Shown: piece by piece, positions 6,842 through 57,836 of the stretch
How the letters are laid out: every line of letters begins with the position of its first letter
Position numbering within the stretch: the first letter of the stretch is position 1
Assembly: GCF_027625995.1 (NCBI RefSeq)
Contig: NZ_CP115396.1
Span: 1,364,001-1,428,000, forward strand
DNA: 64,000 bases
Direction of reading: 5' to 3'
Source of the DNA: Hymenobacter yonginensis
GTDB lineage: Bacteria > Bacteroidota > Bacteroidia > Cytophagales > Hymenobacteraceae
Made by a program: the position numbers and the translations under genes
Notes under the pieces: model-generated
Database searches by the model: none
What the model saw: the letters and a program-made list of their open reading frames with translations, nothing else
What the model was told of the DNA's origin: nothing

Positions 6842-6885
6842 AGGAAAAGAGTAGCTGAGTGGTTGAGTAACGGAGTAAGGTGAGC

Positions 6886-6985
6886 ACGTCATGCAGAGGC
6901 GCGGCCGAAGCATCTCGCTCGTGTAGTAATCAGTAGCACCACAACTTCAGCACGCGAGATGCTTCGGCTGCGGCTCTGCATGACG
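6886..6985. repeat. Long palindrome, family A variant
   Basis: Two arms of about 36 bases (CGTCATGCAGAGGC near the left end, GCCTCTGCATGACG-like on the right) are mostly complementary across a spacer of about 28 bases. The inner halves (CATCTCGC / GCGAGATG) match the inner halves of the other family A palindromes at 20700, 21795, 23767 and 33851; the outer part differs (GCAGAGG in place of TCCGAGC). It fills the gap between the small membrane protein and the FAD oxidoreductase. Confidence 0.8.
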
Positions 6986-6988
6986 TTT

Positions 6989-8287
6989 TTAGTTACTCTT
7001 TGAAAGAAGCTGTTGATTGAACGTACGCAGGATGGCGGGCTCGTGGCGGCGGAAAAATTCGGGGTCGAAGTTGGCGCGGCGCAGCTGGGCCAGCACTTCC
7101 TGCACCGGCGTACCGGCCCGCAGCCAGCTTTCCCATACGTCGTGGCGCTGCCGGATGCCCAGGGCATTGACGCCCGTTACGGCGTTTCCTTGGCCGGGCC
7201 GGTAGTTGATGCGCAGCGCGTGGCGGCCGTTGGGGTGCTGCCAGTAGCAGGTTTGCTCCCCGGCCGTAGCCTCCGCCGGCACCCGGCCGTAGGTCTGGTA
7301 TTCGAGCTGAAAGAACTTGGCTGAGTTGAACCAGGGCCCGCGCTGGTAGGGCGTCGGCTGCCCGCAGATGGTGTAGGCCACGGTTTCGCCCTGCATACGG
7401 CCGGTGTACCAGAGCTGCTCGATGGGCACCTCGTCGGCGCCGGGCTGGCGGTGCTGGGCACAGTCGCCGGCGGCGTACACGTCGGGCAGGCTGGTTTGCA
7501 GGTGTGCGTCCACCAGAATGCCGCGGTCGGTTTCCAGGGTGGGGCAGGTGCGGGCCAAGGCCAGGTTGGGGGCCACGCCGGTAGCCAGGCCCACCCACTG
7601 GCAGGGCAGCTCGGTGCCCTGGGTGGTGCGCACAGCGCGCACCCGGCCGGTGTCGTCGGGTAGGATTTCGGCCAGCTCGGTGCCATAGTGCACTGTAGTG
7701 TGGTGCGCGCGCAGCTGCAGCTCAATCAGGGCGGCTTCTTCGGGGGGCAGCACCGAGCCCCAGTAGCGGCTGTCGCGCACGAGCATGGTCACGGCAATAC
7801 CGCGGGAGTGCAGCATCTCGGCCAGCTCAATCCCGATCAGGCCGCCGCCCACCACCACGGCCTGCCGGATGCCGTGCGTGTCGCGGTGCATCTGCTCCAG
7901 ATCGGGCAGCGAGTACAGGCCCTGCACGCCCGGCAGATGCTGGCCGGGCCAGCCCGCCAGCCGGCTCACTGAGCCGGTAGCCAGCAGCAGCTTATCATAG
8001 GTGAGGGGCGGGCCGGTGCTCAGGTGTATGGTTTTACGGCCGGCATCGAGGGCGGTGGCGGTGGCGTACACCAGCTCCAGGCGGTTTTCCAGCCAGAACC
8101 AGTCTTCGTAAGGCTTGATGTCTTGGGCGCGCATGTGGCCCATGTACACGTACATGAGGGCCGTGCGGGAAAAGTGGTGCGGCGTCTCCTCCGACACCAG
8201 CGTGATGCGGGCCTCGGGCGAGAGCCGCCGCACTGTCAGGGCGCAGCTCACGCCCGTAATGCCGTTGCCGATGATAACCAGGTGCAT
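6989..8287 (-). CDS. FAD/NAD(P)-dependent oxidoreductase
   Basis: 432 residues of the pyridine-nucleotide disulfide reductase-like fold. The N-terminal FAD site is HLVIIGNGITGVSCA (residues 2-16), the NAD(P) site is AVVVGGGLIGIELAEML near residue 150, and the second FAD contact is PDVYAAGDCAQH near residue 285. There is no CxxxxC redox disulfide, so it resembles ferredoxin reductases and the NirB/rubredoxin reductase group rather than lipoamide dehydrogenase. The ATG at 8287 starts the FAD motif directly. It is first in a minus-strand group with the small membrane protein and the polyferredoxin, suggesting an electron path NAD(P)H - FAD - Fe-S - membrane. The last codons (AAG AGT AAC TAA) look like the TACTC repeat unit. 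Confidence 0.85.
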   Translation of the reverse strand: MHLVIIGNGITGVSCALTVRRLSPEARITLVSEETPHHFSRTALMYVYMGHMRAQDIKPYEDWFWLENRLELVYATATALDAGRKTIHLSTGPPLTYDKLLLATGSVSRLAGWPGQHLPGVQGLYSLPDLEQMHRDTHGIRQAVVVGGGLIGIELAEMLHSRGIAVTMLVRDSRYWGSVLPPEEAALIELQLRAHHTTVHYGTELAEILPDDTGRVRAVRTTQGTELPCQWVGLATGVAPNLALARTCPTLETDRGILVDAHLQTSLPDVYAAGDCAQHRQPGADEVPIEQLWYTGRMQGETVAYTICGQPTPYQRGPWFNSAKFFQLEYQTYGRVPAEATAGEQTCYWQHPNGRHALRINYRPGQGNAVTGVNALGIRQRHDVWESWLRAGTPVQEVLAQLRRANFDPEFFRRHEPAILRTFNQQLLSKSN

Positions 8288-17922: not shown

Positions 17923-18042
17923 GTGGTGAGTTGGTGGAGTGGCGGATTGGTGGATTCGTCAGCCTGAGCAGCACTGGTACGTAGTAGCGCGAACTTCGCG
18001 GTTCGTGCTACCGGCACTCCACCAGCCCACTACTCCCCAAAC
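17923..18042. repeat. Intergenic inverted arrays around a short family B hairpin
   Basis: Left-hand units such as GGTGAGTTGGTGGAGTGG and right-hand CACTCCACCAGCCCACTA are mutually complementary. Between them, at 17984-18011, GTAGCGCGAAC and GTTCGTGCTAC form a hairpin that is a shortened copy of the family B palindrome (29641, 31332, 60923). The array begins directly after the NadR stop codon. Confidence 0.65.
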
Positions 18043-19321: not shown

Positions 19322-20638
19322 ATGTCAGTTGCCCGCCCATCCGCCGCCACGCCGCTACCCGCGCCCGCCGCGCCGCCCGCTGCCCGGCAGTTTGTGCGCG
19401 GCTCGGTGGGATCGGGCGTGGCCGTGGTGGCGCGTGCGGCGGGGGCGCTGCTGCTCAACAAGCTGCTGGCCGTGTACGGCGGCCCCGGCGGCCTCACGCT
19501 GCTGGCGCACTTCCAGAACCTGATGGCCCTGTTCACGACGCTGCCCAACGACGGCACGCACGTGGGCCTGGTGAAATACCTGGCGCCGCTGCCGGCCCGC
19601 GCCGGCCGCTACCGGGCGTGGCTGGGGGCGGCACTGTTGCTGAACGGGGCTGCGCTGGCCCTGGGGCTGCTGGCGCTGCTGCTGTTTCCGGGGCCGCTGG
19701 TAGGAGTGTTTCAGCCCTCGGTGGGCTGGGTGGCTCTGTTTGGGCTGGGTATTGCGCTGCTCACGGCCTACGCGCTGCTGGGCGCCGTACTGCTGGCTGC
19801 CGGGCAGCTGCGCGCCTATATTAGCCTGACGGTGGCGCTGAGTTTGCTGGGGCCGGCGGCGGTGGCGATGGTGCTGGCCGGCGGCGGCGCGGCAACCACG
19901 GCGCTGCTGACGTATCTGCTGGCCCAGGGTGCCACGCTGCTGCCGGCCCTTTGGCTCACGCACCGGGCCGGGCTGCTGCCGGCGCTGTGGCCGGGCCGCC
20001 TGAGCAAAGCCGCGCTGCGGGGACTGGGCCGTTTCCTGCTGATGGCCGTGGGGCTGCTGCTGTTCGGCAAAGCCGTGGACTTTGCGGTGCGGGAGCTGCT
20101 GATCCGGCAGTTCACCCTCGCCGAAACCGACCTCTGGCAGGCCGTAGCCAAGCTCTCCGACAACTACACCATGGTGATGACCGCCGTGATGAGCAGCGTG
20201 TACTATCCGCGGCTGGCGGCGCTGGCGTCTCAGCCAGCCGCGCAGCGGGCCTGGGTGCGCACGGTGCTGCAGATGCTGGTGCCGCTGCTGGCCGCCGGCC
20301 TGGGTTTGCTCTACGCGCTGCGCCACTGGCTGCTGCCGGTGCTGTTCGAGGCCCGTTTCGGGGCAGCCGCCAGCCTGCTGGGTCCCCAGCTGCTCGGCGA
20401 CTGGCTGCGGTTTGTGGCGTGGCCGCTGGTGATGGTGCTCACGGCCCAGGCCCGCGTAGGGCGCTACGTAGCGCTGCAGACAGCCTCGGCGGTGCTGTAC
20501 GCCGCGGCCCTGGCGCTGCTGCTGCCGCGGCTGGGTTTGGTGGGAGCCGTATGGGCCTCCGCGCTGCGCCACGGCCTGCTGCTGCTCTGGTGCGGCTGGT
20601 ATTTTCGGCGGTTTTGGGTCGGGGAAGTGATGAAGTGA
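19322..20638 (+). CDS. O-antigen/polysaccharide flippase (Wzx-like, MATE/MVF fold)
   Basis: 438 residues with about 12 membrane helices, typical of polysaccharide transporters that move lipid-linked repeat units to the periplasmic face. The N-terminal region FVRGSVGSGVAVVARAAGAL, followed by LLNKLLAVYGGPGGLTLLAH, resembles WzxE-type O-antigen translocases, including the KLLAVYGGPGGLTLL-type loop. The ATG at 19322 is used because of the adjacent promoter; a long upstream extension would overlap the divergent corA gene. It begins a surface-glycan group with the GT2 at 20868. The final codons GTG ATG AAG TGA are part of the GTGATGGG array that follows. Confidence 0.85.
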   Translation: MSVARPSAATPLPAPAAPPAARQFVRGSVGSGVAVVARAAGALLLNKLLAVYGGPGGLTLLAHFQNLMALFTTLPNDGTHVGLVKYLAPLPARAGRYRAWLGAALLLNGAALALGLLALLLFPGPLVGVFQPSVGWVALFGLGIALLTAYALLGAVLLAAGQLRAYISLTVALSLLGPAAVAMVLAGGGAATTALLTYLLAQGATLLPALWLTHRAGLLPALWPGRLSKAALRGLGRFLLMAVGLLLFGKAVDFAVRELLIRQFTLAETDLWQAVAKLSDNYTMVMTAVMSSVYYPRLAALASQPAAQRAWVRTVLQMLVPLLAAGLGLLYALRHWLLPVLFEARFGAAASLLGPQLLGDWLRFVAWPLVMVLTAQARVGRYVALQTASAVLYAAALALLLPRLGLVGAVWASALRHGLLLLWCGWYFRRFWVGEVMK

Positions 20639-20867
20639 TGGGGTGATGGGGTGATGGGGTGATGGGGTGATGAGGGGTTAGGTAAGACGAAACAAACAGC
20701 ACGTCATTCCGAGCGGAGCAAGAAATTTCGCCAGCACGGTAGAATCATTCACTACACGGGCGAGATTCCTCGCTCCGCTCGGAATGACGTGCTTACTTTG
20801 TTACCTGTCACCTGTCACCTGTCACCTCATCACCTCATCACCTCATCACCTCATCACCTCAGAAGAA
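20625..20867. repeat. Composite repeat element A1 (array - palindrome - array)
   Basis: Left array: six GTGATGGG/GTGATGAA units from about 20625 to 20672. Palindrome: 20700-20792, with ACGTCATTCCGAGCGGAGC and GCTCCGCTCGGAATGACGT arms. Right array: CACCTGTC units followed by CACCTCAT units (20801-20860), partly complementary to the left array. The left array overlaps the 3' end of the flippase gene; the right array ends just before the GT2 start. Confidence 0.9.
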
Positions 20868-21776
20868 ATGACGCCTCTGGTTACCATCGTGGCGCTTTGC
20901 TACAACCACGGCCGCTTCCTGCGGCCCGCGCTGGATTCCATTCTGGCCCAGACGTATCCGCGGCTGGAGGTGTTTCTGGTGGATGATGGCAGCACCGACA
21001 ACAGCGTGGCGGTGCTGCGTGAGTACGCCGCCGCGCATCCGGAGTGGAAAACAGTTTTTCTGCCCGAAAACATCGGCAACTGTGCGGCTTTCAACCGGGC
21101 GTTCTTCCAAAGCCAGGGAGAGTTTCTCATCGACTTCGCCACCGACGATATTCTGCTGCCCGAGCGGGTGGCGCGGCAAGTGGCGCGGTTTCAGGAGCTG
21201 GATGCCAGCTATGGCATGCTCTACGGCAACGTGGCGCTGCACACCGAAGGCGGGGAGTTTCAACGGCTGTTTCACGCGCCCGGCCCTACGGGTGCGCTAC
21301 AGCCAGCTCCCGCTTCGGGCTGGGTGTTTGAGGATGTGCTGCGCCGGTTTTTTATCAGCGCGCCGTCCATGATGATGCGGCGCGCCACGCTGGAGCAGCT
21401 CAACGGCTACGACGAAACGCTGGCCTACGAGGACTTCGATTTCTGGGTGCGGGCCTCCCGCAACTGGCAGTTCAGCTACCAGGATGAAATCCTGACCGAA
21501 AAGCGTCTGCACCCCCGTTCCATGTCGGCGCAGGGCTACCGCCCCGGCGACCCGCTGGTGGCCTCCACCATCCGCATCTGCCACAAAGCCGCCGCCCTGT
21601 GCCGCACCGCGCCCGAGCGCCAGGCCCTTGCCGAGCGGGTGCGCTGGGAGCTGCGTCAGGCCGCCCGCTGGGGCAACCTCCCCGAGGCCCGCGACCTGTA
21701 CGCCCTGCTGCGCGAGCTGGGCGGCGCCGGGCTGATTGAGCACGGAATTGGAGCGTATCTGAAGGTGATGAGGTGA
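20868..21776 (+). CDS. Family 2 glycosyltransferase
   Basis: 302 residues. The GT-A core is clear: PLVTIVALCYNHGRFLRPAL, then LDSILAQTYPRLEVFLVDDG and STDNS, then FLIDFATDDILLPERV (DxD-like site), and later GYDETLAYEDFDFWVRAS with the acidic acceptor-side motif. There is no membrane helix, so it is cytoplasmic or peripheral. It adds a sugar to a glycan precursor; donor unknown. The flippase upstream points to surface polysaccharide or lipopolysaccharide synthesis. The ATG at 20868 was chosen because it starts the fold; the upstream frame is repeat DNA. The last codons GTG ATG AGG TGA come from the next repeat array. Confidence 0.9.
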   Translation: MTPLVTIVALCYNHGRFLRPALDSILAQTYPRLEVFLVDDGSTDNSVAVLREYAAAHPEWKTVFLPENIGNCAAFNRAFFQSQGEFLIDFATDDILLPERVARQVARFQELDASYGMLYGNVALHTEGGEFQRLFHAPGPTGALQPAPASGWVFEDVLRRFFISAPSMMMRRATLEQLNGYDETLAYEDFDFWVRASRNWQFSYQDEILTEKRLHPRSMSAQGYRPGDPLVASTIRICHKAAALCRTAPERQALAERVRWELRQAARWGNLPEARDLYALLRELGGAGLIEHGIGAYLKVMR

Positions 21777-21975
21777 TGAGGTGTCAACGTTAAGAACGTC
21801 ATTCCGAGCGGAGCGAGGAATCTCGCGTGCTGACGTTGGATTACTATTGCAACGTCAGCACGCGAGATTCCTCGCTCCACTCGGAATGACGTTCTTTCTT
21901 TACCTGTCACCTGTCACCTGTCACCTGTCACCTGTCACCTGTCACCTGTCACCTCATCACCTCATCACCTGTCAT
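21764..21975. repeat. Composite repeat element A2 (array - palindrome - array)
   Basis: Left GTGATGAGGTGATGAGGTG units (21764-21783), a nearly perfect palindrome at 21795-21893 (arms of about 40 bases, AACGTCATTCCGAGCGGAGC outward and CACGCGAGATTCC inward), then seven CACCTGTC units and CACCTCATCACC (21901-21974). It lies between convergent genes and supplies the stop codons of both: GTG ATG AGG TGA on the plus strand and GAT GAC AGG TGA on the minus strand. Confidence 0.9.
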
Positions 21976-23635
21976 CCAAAACCACCTCATACAACTCCAC
22001 CGGCCCGTCCTGGGCTACCAACTGGCGGTGGGGGAACCAGGTTAGCATGGAGTCGGCGGAGTATTGGATGAGCTTGCGGGTTAGCTCGTCGTTTTGCAGG
22101 GTGGCGCGGTTGAGCAGCAGCCATGATTTGTCGCCGGGGCGGCGGGCCACGGAGTCGCGCCGCGCGAACCGTTCGTAGTGCAGGCTGGGGGTGGGGCGGA
22201 AGCCGTAGTAGAAATCGGCGTGGCGCAGCAGCATATCATCGGTGAACACCACCCCGCGGCGGCTGGCGGGTAGGTGCGTTTTCAGCAGCCGCGCCTGCGC
22301 AAAGTGAGCCGATACGCTGGGCTTGCGCGTATAGTACACCGGCCGAATCAGGAGCAGCAGCGCCAGCGTGCCCAGCAGCAGCGCCCCAAAACCTGAGGTG
22401 CCTGGCGTGAGCCAGCCAGGTAGCCTACGTACGTAACGCAGGCCGGCTACAGCCAGCAGCAACAGGCCCAACCCACCATACAGCACCGCTACGCCGTTGT
22501 GCAGCCAGCCCGCAAAGCCCAGCATCACCAGCCCGATCAGCCAGCTTCCGCGCCCGGTTTGCCATAGGTTGCGCAGTCCAAACCCGGCCGCCAGCGCCAG
22601 CGGCGGCAGCAGCGGCGTCACCATGCGGGCCTGCAACGAAATCGGGTTGTACTCGTGCAGGGAGGTGCTGCCCCACCAGTAGAACGCCAGCGTGCTGACC
22701 GCCAGCGCCACCCAAAACCCGGCCTCATCGTCAGACGTGGCCGCATCTGCCGGGCCTTGTGGGCGGCGACGGCCGAAGCCGGCCGCTGCGGCCAGTACCA
22801 GCATCACGCCCATGCCCAGGGCCACAAAAAAGTCGAGCGGCTGCCAGGTTACGCGGCCCAGCAAGGCATCGGCGTGGCCCTGCACGTAGTTGCCGTCGCG
22901 CATGTAGGCATTGGTTTGCTCGATGATGTGGTAGCGGTAGAGCACGTCGCCGGTCAGTACCTGGTAGTAGATCAGGTAAGCCGCCAGCAGGCCGGCGCCG
23001 GTCAGCAGCGCCGCGCGCCAGAACCGGCCATGCTGTTTTCGCCAAGTATCCAGCGCCAGCAGGCCCAGGTAGAAGGGCAGGTAAAACACGATGGTTTCCT
23101 TGCTGAGCAGCGCCGCGAAGCTCAATACGGCGAAGCCCGCACCCCAGGCCACTGGCCGAAGCTGCACTGCGCGCCGCCCCGCCAGCAGCGCCGCCGCCCC
23201 GGCCAGGCACCAGAACATCAGCACGTTGTCGGGGTAGAGGTAGGTGCTCAGGTTAAGGGTGAAGTAGTGCAACCCCAGCAGCAGCACAGCGCCGGCCGCC
23301 ACCAGCGGCTCGCGCCGCCGGTACAGCTGCCAGATGATGCCGGCGCAGCCCAGCGTGCACAGCAGCGGCCAGAGCGTGGTGCTGATGATGTTCACGCCTA
23401 GCACCCGGTAGAGCGCCGCCACCGGCCCGAAAATCAGCAGGCGCTCCTGCAGCGGATCGTGGAGCAGGTGCTGTGGGTCGGGGAGGGGGCGGTAGGTGCC
23501 GCTGGCCAGGGCCTGCGCGTAGCGGGCGTAGAGGTAGTCGTCGAGGTCGTAGAGGCCCTCGTGGGCCAGCCCGAAAAAGGCCACGGTCACGACCAGCACC
23601 AGCACCAGGGCCAGCGTAGGAAAGCGGAAAAGCAT
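21965..23635 (-). CDS. Polytopic membrane glycosyltransferase (GT39/ArnT-like)
   Basis: 556 residues with about 11 membrane helices. Near the N-terminus, GLAHEGLYDLDDYLYARYAQ carries the acidic residues expected in the first periplasmic loop of GT-C enzymes (Asp-Asp after the first helix), followed by LLHDPLQERLLIFGPVAALY. It transfers a sugar from a lipid-linked donor on the periplasmic side of the inner membrane. The ATG at 23635 (MLFRFPTLALVLVLVVTV) is preferred; a GTG at 23647 would add four residues. It converges on the GT2 gene and is divergent from the polytopic protein at 24062, with repeat elements on both sides. The last codons DDR-stop are repeat-derived. Confidence 0.8.
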   Translation of the reverse strand: MLFRFPTLALVLVLVVTVAFFGLAHEGLYDLDDYLYARYAQALASGTYRPLPDPQHLLHDPLQERLLIFGPVAALYRVLGVNIISTTLWPLLCTLGCAGIIWQLYRRREPLVAAGAVLLLGLHYFTLNLSTYLYPDNVLMFWCLAGAAALLAGRRAVQLRPVAWGAGFAVLSFAALLSKETIVFYLPFYLGLLALDTWRKQHGRFWRAALLTGAGLLAAYLIYYQVLTGDVLYRYHIIEQTNAYMRDGNYVQGHADALLGRVTWQPLDFFVALGMGVMLVLAAAAGFGRRRPQGPADAATSDDEAGFWVALAVSTLAFYWWGSTSLHEYNPISLQARMVTPLLPPLALAAGFGLRNLWQTGRGSWLIGLVMLGFAGWLHNGVAVLYGGLGLLLLAVAGLRYVRRLPGWLTPGTSGFGALLLGTLALLLLIRPVYYTRKPSVSAHFAQARLLKTHLPASRRGVVFTDDMLLRHADFYYGFRPTPSLHYERFARRDSVARRPGDKSWLLLNRATLQNDELTRKLIQYSADSMLTWFPHRQLVAQDGPVELYEVVLDDR

Positions 23636-23647
23636 GCGGTGATTCAC

Positions 23648-24061
23648 ACCGGCAAAGATGGTGATTAAGTGATGAGGTGGTTTTTGGTGATGAAGTTATG
23701 GGGTGATGAGGTGATTAGGTAATAGGGGGCACGTGACAGGTGACAAGGAATCAGGGGTAATGAGAGAACGTCATTCCGAGCGGAGCGAGGAATCTCGCGT
23801 GCTGATGCTGCGCTGCATGGGCAGGCTTGCAGTTATTCAGGGGCATGTTTGTAGCGTCTGGGTGAGGAGTGGAGGGGCGAGGGCCGCCGCCCGCCCGCAG
23901 TCGTTCGACAGTCTTTTTGCAGCGTACATTTACAGCACAGCTATAGAACAGTGTCAGCACGCAAGATTCCTCGCTCCGCTCGGAATGGCGTTCTTCCCTT
24001 ATCACCCCATCACCCCATCACCCCATCACCCCATCACCCCATTACCCCACCACCCAGAAAA
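23648..24061. repeat. Composite repeat element A3 filling a 414-base gap
   Basis: Left arrays of GTGATGAGG/GTGATGAAG units (about 23663-23755), then a palindrome whose arms (23767-23812 and 23952-23995, AACGTCATTCCGAGCGGAGC and its mate) are separated by about 140 bases of unrelated sequence. The right array has CATCACCC units (23999-24054). The insertion between the arms distinguishes it from A1, A2 and A4; nothing recognisable is encoded in it. The gap separates divergent genes, and no good TAnnTTTG promoter is visible for either. Confidence 0.85.
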
Positions 24062-26849: not shown

Positions 26850-27041
26850 ATCACGGATTTTCCCGGATTAGACGGATGAGTCGGATTTTGTAGTCGACAC
26901 TGATCCGGCTTCTTGTCAATCAACTGAGTACATAAAAAAGGAGACTTGCCGTTTGGCAAGCCTCCTTTTTTGCTTTTCGGCTACGTGATGAGTCGGCTAC
27001 AAAATCCGACCCATTCGTTTAATCCGGAGAAATCCATGATT
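26850..27041. repeat. Inverted GGATT/CGGATTTTGTAG repeat flanking a terminator
   Basis: The left arm (26853-26896) contains ACGGATGAGTCGGATTTTG; the right arm (26997-27040) contains CTACAAAATCCGACCCATTC and TTTAATCCGG. The two are complementary with a few mismatches and enclose a terminator. A one-sided copy with the same CGGATTAGTCGGATTTTGT unit occurs at about 59076-59112. Confidence 0.75.
26934..26971. terminator. Terminator between the desaturase and lipoprotein genes
   Basis: AAAAAAGGAGACTTGCC pairs with GGCAAGCCTCCTTTTTT across a GTTT loop (one mismatch). It works in both directions for the convergent genes. Confidence 0.85.
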
Positions 27042-28350: not shown

Positions 28351-28361
28351 GGGTAGTCGGG

Positions 28362-28475
28362 CTTTAGTTGTTAGTTGTCGGTTGTCTCAGGTTGTAGTTG
28401 TTGGCTGCTTGGTTTCGTACTAACAACTGACAACCAACAACTGGCAACTACTACCTACTCTCCCGACAACTAAAA
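28362..28475. repeat. Inverted arrays of GTTGTTAGTTGT-type units
   Basis: Left: units such as TTAGTTGT, GGTTGT and TAGTTGT (28364-28413). Right: ACAACTGACAACCAACAACT and TGGCAAC (28422-28450). They are complementary and can form a long imperfect hairpin between the divergent DUF427 and VWA genes. A second array of the same unit lies at 37791-37862. Confidence 0.8.
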
Positions 28476-28516
28476 ACCGGCTTACGTTGTTCTAAAAGCT
28501 CACTCCCCCAATTTAT

Positions 28517-29623: not shown

Positions 29624-29640
29624 GCGTTTACCGGCCTCGC

Positions 29641-29728
29641 AGTAGCGCGAACTTTGTAGTTCGCGTCCCCGCGCCGTTCAAACTATTACAACGGCGCGGG
29701 GGGCGCGAACTACAAAGTTCGCGCTACT
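29641..29728. repeat. Family B palindrome B1
   Basis: The arms AGTAGCGCGAACTTTGTAGT and its complement ACTACAAAGTTCGCGCTACT are perfectly paired over about 24 bases, with an inner GCGCCGTT/AACGGCGC stem and a short spacer. It lies between the VWA and AAA+ genes. Confidence 0.9.
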
Positions 29729-29766
29729 GTCTACCTCTTTCCATTCGCTCATTCTATTCTCCATTC

Positions 29767-33777: not shown

Positions 33778-33984
33778 TGGTGTAGTGATGAGGTGATGAA
33801 GTTATGAGGTGACAGGTAACAGGTGAAAAGTAGCAGGGGTTATAACGGATGAACGTCATTCCGAGCAGCGCGCAGAATCTCGCGTGCTGACTTTGCAATA
33901 GTAGCCAGGCATCAGCACGCGAGATTCCTCCCTTCGCTCGGAATGACGTTCTTTCTTTACCTGTCACTCCATCACCCCATCACC
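33778..33984. repeat. Composite repeat element A4 (array - palindrome - array)
   Basis: Left array: GTGATGAGGTGATGAAG and TGAGGTGACAGGTAACAGGT (33778-33828). Palindrome 33851-33952 with GAACGTCATTCCGAGC and its mate; one arm has CAGCGCGCAG where the others have GGAGCGAGG. Right array: CTGTCACTCCATCACCCCAT (33960-33984). It sits between two minus-strand genes. Confidence 0.88.
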
Positions 33985-34920: not shown

Positions 34921-35036
34921 GAGAGTAACTGAGTAAAGGAGTATCTGAGTAAGGAGTAACTGAGCAGTTGAGTAACTGAGTAGCAGGGTCGAGCTGTAGA
35001 ACGCACTACTCAGTTACTCAACTGCTCAGTTACTCT
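34921..35036. repeat. Inverted arrays of GAGTAACT units
   Basis: Left: GAGTAACT, GAGTAAAG, GAGTATCT, GAGTAAGG, GAGTAACT, GAGCAGTT, GAGTAACT, GAGTAGCA. Right: ACTACTCAGTTACTCAACTG and CTCAGTTACTC. They can pair into a long hairpin between rsgA and kdtA. The right array overlaps the end of kdtA, whose last codons AGT AAC TGA are one repeat unit. Confidence 0.9.
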
Positions 35037-36270: not shown

Positions 36271-36276
36271 CTTTCA

Positions 36277-36475
36277 GGACTTAGGGCATGGTGCTTAGGG
36301 CTTGGGCCCAGAGCAGCGAGTTCTTGGTGCGTATCCGGAAGCTCGAAAAACAATCCGTTTACACTGGAATGCGCAAAAGTAGGCTTTTGCCTGCAGGCGA
36401 ACTAAAAAAGGCTCCGACGTATCCGCCGGAGCCTTTAAATCGAAGTGCTTCTAAGCCTAAGCCCTAAGCTCAGAT
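36277..36475. repeat. Inverted CTTAGGGC units flanking a terminator
   Basis: Left: GACTTAGGGCATGGTGCTTA (36279-36298) and GGGCTTGGGC. Right: AAGCCTAAGCCCTAAGCTC (36453-36471). Partly complementary arms enclose the promoter of kdtA and the terminator at 36404-36438. Confidence 0.6.
36404..36438. terminator. Terminator downstream of the 2-Cys peroxiredoxin gene
   Basis: AAAGGCTCCG and CGGAGCCTTT pair across a 10-base loop, with A-runs before and T/A after; on the minus strand it follows the gene ending at 36478. Confidence 0.8.
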
Positions 36476-36477
36476 AC

Positions 36478-50325: not shown

Positions 50326-50353
50326 GCTTGCTAACAGCTGTTGTAAGGCAGGA

Positions 50354-50471
50354 ACAGGCGAGGTAGCTACGCAATAGTTGGAGTCTCGTCGTTGAACGAC
50401 TGACGCCGGATTGTGCGGCGAAACAACATCAGCAACGGCGAGACGCAAGATATTGCGCCTCTACCTCGTTC
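50354..50471. repeat. Palindromic element, family D
   Basis: GAGGTAG (50354 region), GCAATAGTTGGAGTCTCGTC and GTTGA on the left pair imperfectly with CAACGGCGAGACGCAAGATA and TTGCGCCTCTACCTC on the right. It resembles known GAGACGC-type repeats of Bacteroidota and Cyanobacteria. It fills most of the gap between the saccharopine dehydrogenase and ABC permease genes. Confidence 0.75.
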
Positions 50472-50536
50472 ACCCAGCCGAAAAGTATCTATAACAGCTT
50501 CTCTAGGCAGCCGCGGGTGCGTGCCAACTTAGGCAT

Positions 50537-57319: not shown

Positions 57320-57742
57320 ATGCTGACACTCGCAATTCCGGGCCTGGAGGCCCTGCCCGCCGTGGCCGACCAGGTGCGGGACGCTTTACAGGGCCACAAC
57401 ATCGTGTGCTTCGAGGGCGAGATGGGGGCCGGCAAGACCACGTTCATCAAGGCCCTGTGCGTTAGCCTGGGCGTGCCCGAGGACGAGGTCAGCAGCCCCA
57501 CGTTCTCGCTGGTGAACGAGTACCGCGACGCCCGCAACCAGCCCATCTACCACTTCGACTTCTACCGTCTCAACAATCCCGGCGAAGCCGAGGACATTGG
57601 CGCGTTGGAGTACTTCGATTCCGGCTATCTTTGCCTGATCGAGTGGCCCAGCCGCATTGAGGCGCTGCTGCCCCCCGAACGACTACTCCTCACGCTCACC
57701 GTCACCGGACCTTCATCAAGGGAATTAAAAATTGAGAATTAA
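57320..57742 (+). CDS. tsaE: tRNA threonylcarbamoyladenosine ATPase TsaE
   Basis: 140 residues, the usual length. The P-loop is CFEGEMGAGKTTFIKALCVS, followed by VSSPTFSLVNEY and HFDFYRLNNPGEAEDIGALE, with the conserved D.E..W region in LCLIEWPSRIEALL. It supports TsaBD in making the t6A modification of tRNA. The last codons AAA ATT GAG AAT TAA belong to an AATTAAAAATT repeat that follows, so the natural C-terminus is repeat-encoded. Alanine dehydrogenase follows 98 bases later, a common Bacteroidota order. Confidence 0.93.
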   Translation: MLTLAIPGLEALPAVADQVRDALQGHNIVCFEGEMGAGKTTFIKALCVSLGVPEDEVSSPTFSLVNEYRDARNQPIYHFDFYRLNNPGEAEDIGALEYFDSGYLCLIEWPSRIEALLPPERLLLTLTVTGPSSRELKIEN

Positions 57743-57836
57743 AAATTAAAAATTGCCTGAAACCCTTTCCTCTGAATGAGTTGTGTAAGTGCAATGGTCT
57801 CAATTTTTAATTTTTAATTCTCAATTTTTAATTGAA
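57722..57836. repeat. AT-rich inverted arrays of AATTTTTA units
   Basis: Left: AATTAAAAATTGAGAATTAA and AAATTAAAAATTG. Right: CTCAATTTTTAATTTTTAAT and TCTCAATTTTTAATTG. The two arms are nearly perfect complements across a spacer of about 45 bases. The composition is far below that of the surrounding GC-rich genes. It lies between tsaE and ald. Confidence 0.9.

Follow-up and report, generated by a model that had tools for sequence, protein, structure and literature searches.

The stretch of DNA analyzed in this work (64,000 nucleotides of Hymenobacter yonginensis, contig NZ_CP115396.1, positions 1,364,001 to 1,428,000 of the forward strand; hereafter, the window) harbors four copies of a composite intergenic repeat, located at 20625-20867, 21764-21975, 23648-24061, and 33778-33984. 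An earlier note on this DNA had described them as sharing one layout, that is, an array of short units, a palindrome, and a second array complementary to the first; both the coordinates and the layout were found again at all four copies, and the gene contexts assigned to them (same-strand, convergent, divergent, and same-strand, respectively) agree with the list of open reading frames (ORFs). The unit length of nine had to be corrected, the array periods being eight (GTGATGGG/GTGATGAG) and seven (GTGACAG). The composite can be resolved into two separable modules: a convergent pair of arrays of 7-8 bp units on the outside and a palindrome dimer on the inside. In the outer module, which is of the short tandemly repeated repetitive (STRR) kind, the G-rich strand of each array begins at the neighboring gene and runs inwards, at times providing the stop codon of that gene; the inner module is a head-outward dimer of CGTC-type palindromes resembling repetitive extragenic palindromic (REP) sequences.

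In copy 1, the gene that ends at 20638 has its stop codon in the left array (20627-20675, plus strand; 8-bp GTGATGGG units), which is followed by the palindrome (20698-20793) and by a complementary right array (20799-20861, minus strand), made up of TGTCACC and then of TCACCTCA units. In copy 2 both arrays contain a stop codon, the left one (21764-21783, plus strand) that of a gene ending at 21776 and the right one (21902-21974, minus strand; mostly 7-bp units) that of the minus-strand gene ending at 21965; the palindrome between them (21792-21896) has arms that are 94% complementary. At both copies the last residues, and not only the stop codon, are encoded by the arrays, and the same holds for the convergent third gene. 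Copy 3 consists of a degenerate left array (23661-23745, plus strand), a palindrome (23758-24001) whose arms (23758-23810 and 23949-24001) are separated by 138 nt, and a right array of ATCACCCC units (24001-24055, minus strand). Lastly, copy 4 has a left array at 33785-33825 (plus strand), a palindrome at 33843-33959 with arms 81% complementary, and a right array at 33959-33984 (minus strand). The right arm of the palindrome shows a one-base difference in copies 2 and 3, and in copies 1 and 4 the unit make-up differs between the two arrays of the same copy.

The sequences composing these copies are far more frequent in the window than in 100 shuffled versions of it. With up to two mismatches, CGTCATTCCGAGC has nine matches, eight of which fall inside the four copies (shuffles: mean 1.75, maximum 7), and GTGATGRGGTGATG has 28, of which 26 are inside them (mean 0.57, maximum 4); CACCTGTCACCTGTC, with up to three mismatches, has 13 (mean 1.62, maximum 7). 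RNA folding, which covered copies 1, 2, and 4, returned one long hairpin for each of them, with the arrays pairing on the outside and the palindrome on the inside (-155.5, -138.6, and -100.3 kcal/mol; z scores of -17.6, -16.5, and -10.4, respectively). The scan of the window against Rfam retrieved no family. The GGGG tracts at 20635-20675 are spaced by 8 nt and, judging from their sequence, could form a G-quadruplex, a structure also discussed for the arrays of Xanthomonas (PMC4692102).

The genome nearest to the window (G001) is about 92-93% identical over long matches, the next one (G003) 86-93%. The 138 nt within copy 3, which the earlier note had described as 140 bases inserted between the palindrome arms, do not represent a recent insertion in this strain, as G001 has them at the same site (89%); in the seven genomes searched, they matched only G001, plus one weak match in G104. 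The idea that they might be an ancestral promoter spacer was dismissed, because no match above shuffles was retrieved at that site in G003 or in nine other species.

Concerning the inner module, the two halves of a palindrome are small hairpins, in which paired changes among subfamilies maintain the stem (ATTCC/GGAAT, ATGCT/AGCAT, ATTGC/GCAAT). A complement of at least 4 nt is present in 90 of 130 distinct monomers, against a mean of 32 and a maximum of 42 in swapped controls; the ATCCT group fits this test poorly (2 of 23). The C/TGTC head and the AT-starting stem of CGTC-tagged REPs are both present; the uninterrupted 8-9 bp stem and the CCA tail that most of these have are not, the stem consisting, by eye, of 4-5 bp, mismatches, and then 2 bp, and the tail being CTCG in most cases. 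For this reason, we term the palindromes REP-like and do not assign them to the CGTC-tagged REPs. On both sides, the palindromes exit into T-rich sequence (48% T vs. 18%, 102 flanks), as in two-way terminators.

The rules by which the two modules are assembled were derived from three sources, namely the window, 68 kb of G003, and 467 kb of G001. Within G001, the sampled stretches (20, each of 20 kb) were picked around known matches, so that shares in this sample do not represent genome-wide rates. All 51 paired palindromes are oriented head-outward (15 singles were left out), and 29 of the 51 pairs are flanked by arrays (at least two units within 160 nt), which are never reversed and never have units inside the pair. 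Owing to a mutation in its right head, copy 3 was scored as a single; a recount allowing one mismatch gave 64 head-outward and two tandem pairs, 30 with arrays, again with none reversed or inside. As for the gene edges, 66 of 68 array clusters are nearer to the gene that lies 5' of their own G strand (median distance of 6 vs. 161 nt). Genes were called with our own GC-frame script, and the negative values of 17 of the 36 start-side distances show that the called starts are often too long. In the 31 cases of genes ending at an array, the stop codon touches the array or lies inside it in 11, and is within 13 nt of it in 16 more. The protein ends change accordingly between species: the array-coded C-terminus WYFRRFWVGEVMK* of the window and G001 corresponds to WYFRRFWR* in G008, and AYLKVMR* of the window to AYLQLRRLAGN* in the same genome. 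In most periodic arms, with three or more exceptions, stop codons are frequent on the inward strand, and the identical arm order is also found at start-codon edges and in divergent gaps.

A comparison of orthologous sites (26 gaps of the window, read by eye against G001 and G003) revealed changes of the inner module at sites where arms of the outer one are retained. At six sites at least one array arm is kept in the window, G001, and G003, together with a palindrome in at least one of them; at five of these six, one of the three species has a palindrome of another subfamily or none at all (by eye). For instance, at 23648 the window and G001 have CGTCATTCCGAGC, and G003 has GTCATCCTGAGC, within like arms. 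Only the left arm is kept in G001 at 17923, and G003 retains mainly the right arm at the site of copy 1. More distant relatives are mostly without arms and palindrome at these gaps, or have arms made up of other words (TTGTTGGTT in G017, GTGAAATAGTGAACTGG in G055). According to the earlier note, mobility would be unlikely if the copies occupied the same sites in all relatives, with none empty; several relatives are in fact devoid of both arms and palindrome there.

A third repeat (CCTCACCCCC..CCCCCTCTCC) was observed between palindrome halves in the G001 copy of the 21777-21964 gap and at the loci L005, L013, L120, L125, and L131, where the palindromes at its two ends often belong to different subfamilies; in a strict count it is innermost in 4 of 40 G001 dimers. 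At 29640-29729 of the window the GCGCGAACT palindrome is double, and it is single in G001; the same gap of G003 has a GTCATCCTGAGC palindrome instead. In addition, the G003 gap orthologous to 50326-50536 contains about 1.1 kb of extra DNA that, by eye, resembles an insertion sequence encoding a helix-turn-helix transposase.

The two modules also differ in their distribution. The earlier note had recommended searching related genomes with the palindrome, and the palindrome superfamily (CGTCATNCNGAGCGNAGCGAAG, up to two mismatches) was retrieved from all 120 congeneric genomes, with totals from 1 to 713; GTGATGRG arrays (up to one mismatch) were retrieved from 30 of the 120, with at least 10 matches in 14. 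The two counts are not correlated (rho 0.08). In G001 there are 108 + 104 array matches, against 1 + 1 in the control. Moreover, each module is found without the other, since arrays surround unrelated interiors and palindromes may lack arrays; among 20 distinct exact palindromes of G001, arrays are present, by eye, clearly at about eight and weakly at two. The copy-spreading behavior proposed in the earlier note is therefore well founded for the palindromes, with up to hundreds of matches per genome and different subfamilies at orthologous sites. On the whole, these data lead us to favor, with some reserve, the view that two repeat families, mostly spreading separately, built the nested intergenic hairpin.

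Other loci of the window share the same build. At 6850-7000, GAGTA-type arms surround a CGTCATGCAGAGG palindrome (6886-6986), and G003 keeps the arms without the palindrome; at 17923-18033, GTGGTGAG-type arms enclose a palindrome unlike that of G001 and G003. Inverted short words form the arms at 34923-35035 (GAGTAACT) and at 28351-28516 (TTAGTTGT), and the AATTAAA arms at 57723-57833 are 100% complementary over 33 nt, the corresponding gap of G001 and G003 having AATTAGT-type arms and an unrelated loop. At two further loci, CGGATTA-like (26850-27040) and GCTTAG-like (36271-36477) arms frame an ordinary intrinsic terminator, conserved in G001 and G003. The composite thus belongs to a wider pattern, in which convergent pairs of short-word arrays frame something else. 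From the plasmid collection, one Hymenobacter record matched, over 43% of the query.

The arrays are not confined to intergenic regions. In G001, a hairpin of convergent arrays caps helix P12 in the RNA of ribonuclease P (RNase P), the product of the gene rnpB (L031, 2189-2642). We therefore considered 60 of 61 Hymenobacter rnpB genes (L177-L236 and L031; the G059 fragment was left out). The P12 segment is either short (21-41 nt, 29 genes) or long (82-115 nt, 31 genes), with no intermediates; the stem base is common to the two forms, and the entire tip is different. A period of 7 or 8 is seen in all 31 long forms (each p <= 0.05 vs. shuffled arms), the G-rich arm comes first in 30, and the three long tips that were folded form regular stems. 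The array words differ among species, falling into 10 to 18 classes depending on the threshold. On an rnpB tree built without P12 (357 nt, 19 of the 57 inner branches having support below 80), 19 changes of state are needed, of which at least 11 are forced by well-supported branches; this number is close to that obtained when the labels are shuffled (mean 20.4; as few changes in 162 of 500 shuffles). The helix is long in G001 and short in its neighbors G003 and G008. In other genera of the family, 28 loci were examined (one was not parsed and two were misparsed), and 10 of the 25 parsed ones are long and periodic. Searches of the open-access literature did not retrieve any account of arrays in RNase P RNA for Bacteroidota, so that array turnover on P12 is apparently new in this phylum. 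In heterocystous cyanobacteria, STRR arrays are reportedly found in the RNase P RNA gene, going by the title of a 1997 work by Vioque, and are said to be located in P12; the two cases share the presence of short tandem units inside the same gene and differ in phylum.

P12 requires no stop codon, represents no transcript end, and lies at no gene edge, and yet it carries paired arrays in the same order. This implies that pairing and order are inherent to the array pair, the seat of which would be the tip of a hairpin, and it speaks against a general causal role of stop codons or termination. The existence of P12 forms with a common base and different tips, together with the like case near 6886, suggests a replacement of hairpin tips. 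In such a model, the unit of change would be the tip of an existing hairpin: once extruded during replication, the hairpin might be cut close to the tip and then repaired with another dispersed hairpin as the template, with slippage afterwards altering the number of units. Successive replacements would yield nested hairpins, having arrays outermost, palindromes within, and, at times, the third repeat family innermost. Once formed, the hairpin might terminate or protect the transcripts arriving from either side, and the stop codons in its arms would explain why it is tolerated next to genes. For the cutting, SbcCD would be a candidate; SbcD, the protein covered by our search, is encoded in all four genomes tested. 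In its widest form, which we advance as a tentative proposal and consider less likely than not, an unrecognized process would operate in several phyla, drawing convergent short-word array hairpins from a stock and copying them in place of DNA hairpin tips; the G-rich arm would almost always come first, the process would not be limited to gene edges, and spacers, protein C-termini, and P12 would be rewritten alike, the engine being the cutting of tips and their repair from another hairpin.

Some results weigh against this interpretation. Among the 26 gaps compared with G001 and G003, there was no clean pair of empty and occupied sites with ends or a target duplication, and the cutting and repair at hairpin tips is a step that we infer. 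The P12 words, ranked among 31 according to their match with the stock of their own genome, are first in G001 and G014, third in G007 and G010, eighth in G055, and 25th in G017, and these mixed ranks do not lend general support to copying within the same genome. A simple promoter/terminator scan did not flag the four palindromes. In a first count, palindrome dimers appeared to avoid divergent gaps (2 of 75 vs. 42 of 343 others; Fisher p = 0.012); this was lost when blocks were joined, one mismatch was allowed, and copy 3 and its G001 counterpart were included (6 of 78 vs. 50 of 342; p = 0.14). Hence, divergent gaps are not clearly avoided, and a role at transcript ends appears weak. The earlier note had concluded from the gene contexts that the copies are not simply terminators; the contexts are right, and the conclusion, in the light of the two counts, is weak either way. 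Finally, the exact junction GTGACAGG-TAAAGAAAGAA between array and palindrome recurs at 7 of the 145 palindrome heads listed, with close variants at others, and a junction of this type was found at 13 loci of the genome collection, all from Hymenobacter and belonging to five species, so that the modules may partly travel together.

The recurring junction, as well as the identical layout of the four window copies and of those of G001 and G003, would be expected if the composite were a single mobile entity similar to a miniature inverted-repeat transposable element (MITE), in which the arrays represent the terminal inverted repeats, the whole moves as a unit, and slippage later diversifies the copies. 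This corresponds to the element carrying, or growing from, arrays that the earlier note had envisaged. As a main account, we regard it as unlikely: arms are kept where palindromes have changed, arrays also frame unrelated interiors or ordinary terminators, only about eight of the 20 distinct exact palindromes of G001 clearly have arrays, and 30 genomes with arrays stand against 120 with palindromes; some co-movement may nevertheless occur. The same note had suggested looking for a transposase with matching ends, for instance of the Y1 (REP-associated, RAYT) type, and the palindromes might indeed be similar to REPINs and moved by such an enzyme, the arrays being bystanders. Paired inverted repeats in hundreds of copies are in line with this possibility, as is a weak positive correlation between Y1 and palindrome counts over the 120 genomes (rho 0.19, p = 0.036). 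However, neither of the two Y1 genes of G001 has these palindromes at its ends, both being flanked by other repeat families; among the 30 best Y1 loci in the genus, a CGTC-type head turned up within 500 nt of a single one (at 490 nt), and up to 713 palindrome matches occur in the 37 genomes without a Y1 match. We rejected mobilization by Y1 on these grounds and consider it highly improbable. The palindromes between which the Y1 genes of G001 (L031, L032) stand are CCCCGGAGGGGCGG-type and GTAGAGACGCAA-type and may be the REP families that belong to these genes.

Two further explanations concern the complementarity and the order of the arms. Template switching in a hairpin might copy one array to the other side, thus making the arms complementary within a site. 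The fully complementary arms at 57723, whose word is unlike that of G001 and G003, agree with this, and at P12 the two arms of a gene match each other better than the median cross-species match in 31 of 31 cases and better than the arm of any other species in nine; the other 22 show the reverse, the left arms at the six intergenic sites are mostly as similar, or more similar, to the orthologous left arm as to their own partner, and the arms of copies 1 and 4 are unlike in unit make-up. Within-site copying thus fails as a general rule at most intergenic sites and is quite unlikely to be the explanation, with the 57723 site and P12 leaving some room for it. Alternatively, the arrangement might be selected, with arms supplying stops in all frames, the hairpin ending transcripts, and slippage doing the rest. 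Donated stop codons, the stop-rich inward strand of most periodic arms, and the T-rich exits all speak in its favor. Yet, the arm order is unchanged at start-codon edges and in divergent gaps, the Xanthomonas unit GGGAATC has, in our own reading, no stop codon in any frame, and the same order occurs on P12, which speaks against stop-codon selection as the cause of arm order; we hold the explanation as a whole to be very unlikely. Two families spreading for the most part separately, and meeting on the same hairpins, remain the account that we prefer.

Both modules have known counterparts. Convergent G-rich heptamer arrays (GGGAATC) were described in Xanthomonas, with 70 and 75 convergent pairs in two genomes, and similar ones in Nostoc/Anabaena (PMC4692102). 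The arrays studied here resemble them in having G-rich 7-bp units in convergent pairs, in lying closer to the ORF located 5' of them, regardless of the orientation of this ORF, and in overlapping, in some cases, a stop codon; few of the Xanthomonas arrays are located between divergent ORFs (PMC4692102). They differ in that the Xanthomonas unit is of 7 bp and without a stop codon and that of Hymenobacter is another one, also of 8 bp; moreover, neither a palindromic repeat inside the pair nor an RNase P RNA site is mentioned in the part of that report available to us (PMC4692102). The CGTC-tagged REPs form head-outward dimers near gene 3' ends and have no dedicated transposase (PMC3733652), features that our palindromes share, along with the head and the beginning of the stem; the uninterrupted stem is shorter here and the CCA tail is lacking. 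REP dimers within longer palindromes were reported for a few species, and these enclosing palindromes, as described in the accessible text, are not short-unit arrays, unlike those of the window (PMC3733652). TAACTGA heptamer arrays, known from Beggiatoaceae, Cyanobacteria, and five Bacteroidetes (PMC4679880), are likewise intergenic 7-bp arrays near genes, and the window contains a related word (GAGTAACT); they are mainly direct repeats preceding start codons in the main genome of that study, the available part of which does not describe a nested palindrome (PMC4679880). A literature search for Hymenobacter repeats retrieved nothing relevant. Therefore, array pairs and REP dimers are each of a known kind, and what is apparently new is the nesting of palindrome dimers in array pairs, as well as the exchange of interiors between sister species and the octamer words.

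As regards the origin of heptamer and octamer arrays and of their convergent pairing, the literature, as far as it was accessible to us, offers no settled mechanism, slippage and transfer having been proposed. Hymenobacter, bacteria of soil and water, provides sister species with different words on one hairpin. P12, present in all the genomes searched, represents a fixed reference site that has a two-state readout and changes often, so that the way in which such repeats spread becomes a testable question. The called ORFs run into the arrays, which calls for caution in annotation, and by providing stop codons the arrays alter the C-termini of the proteins encoded beside them.

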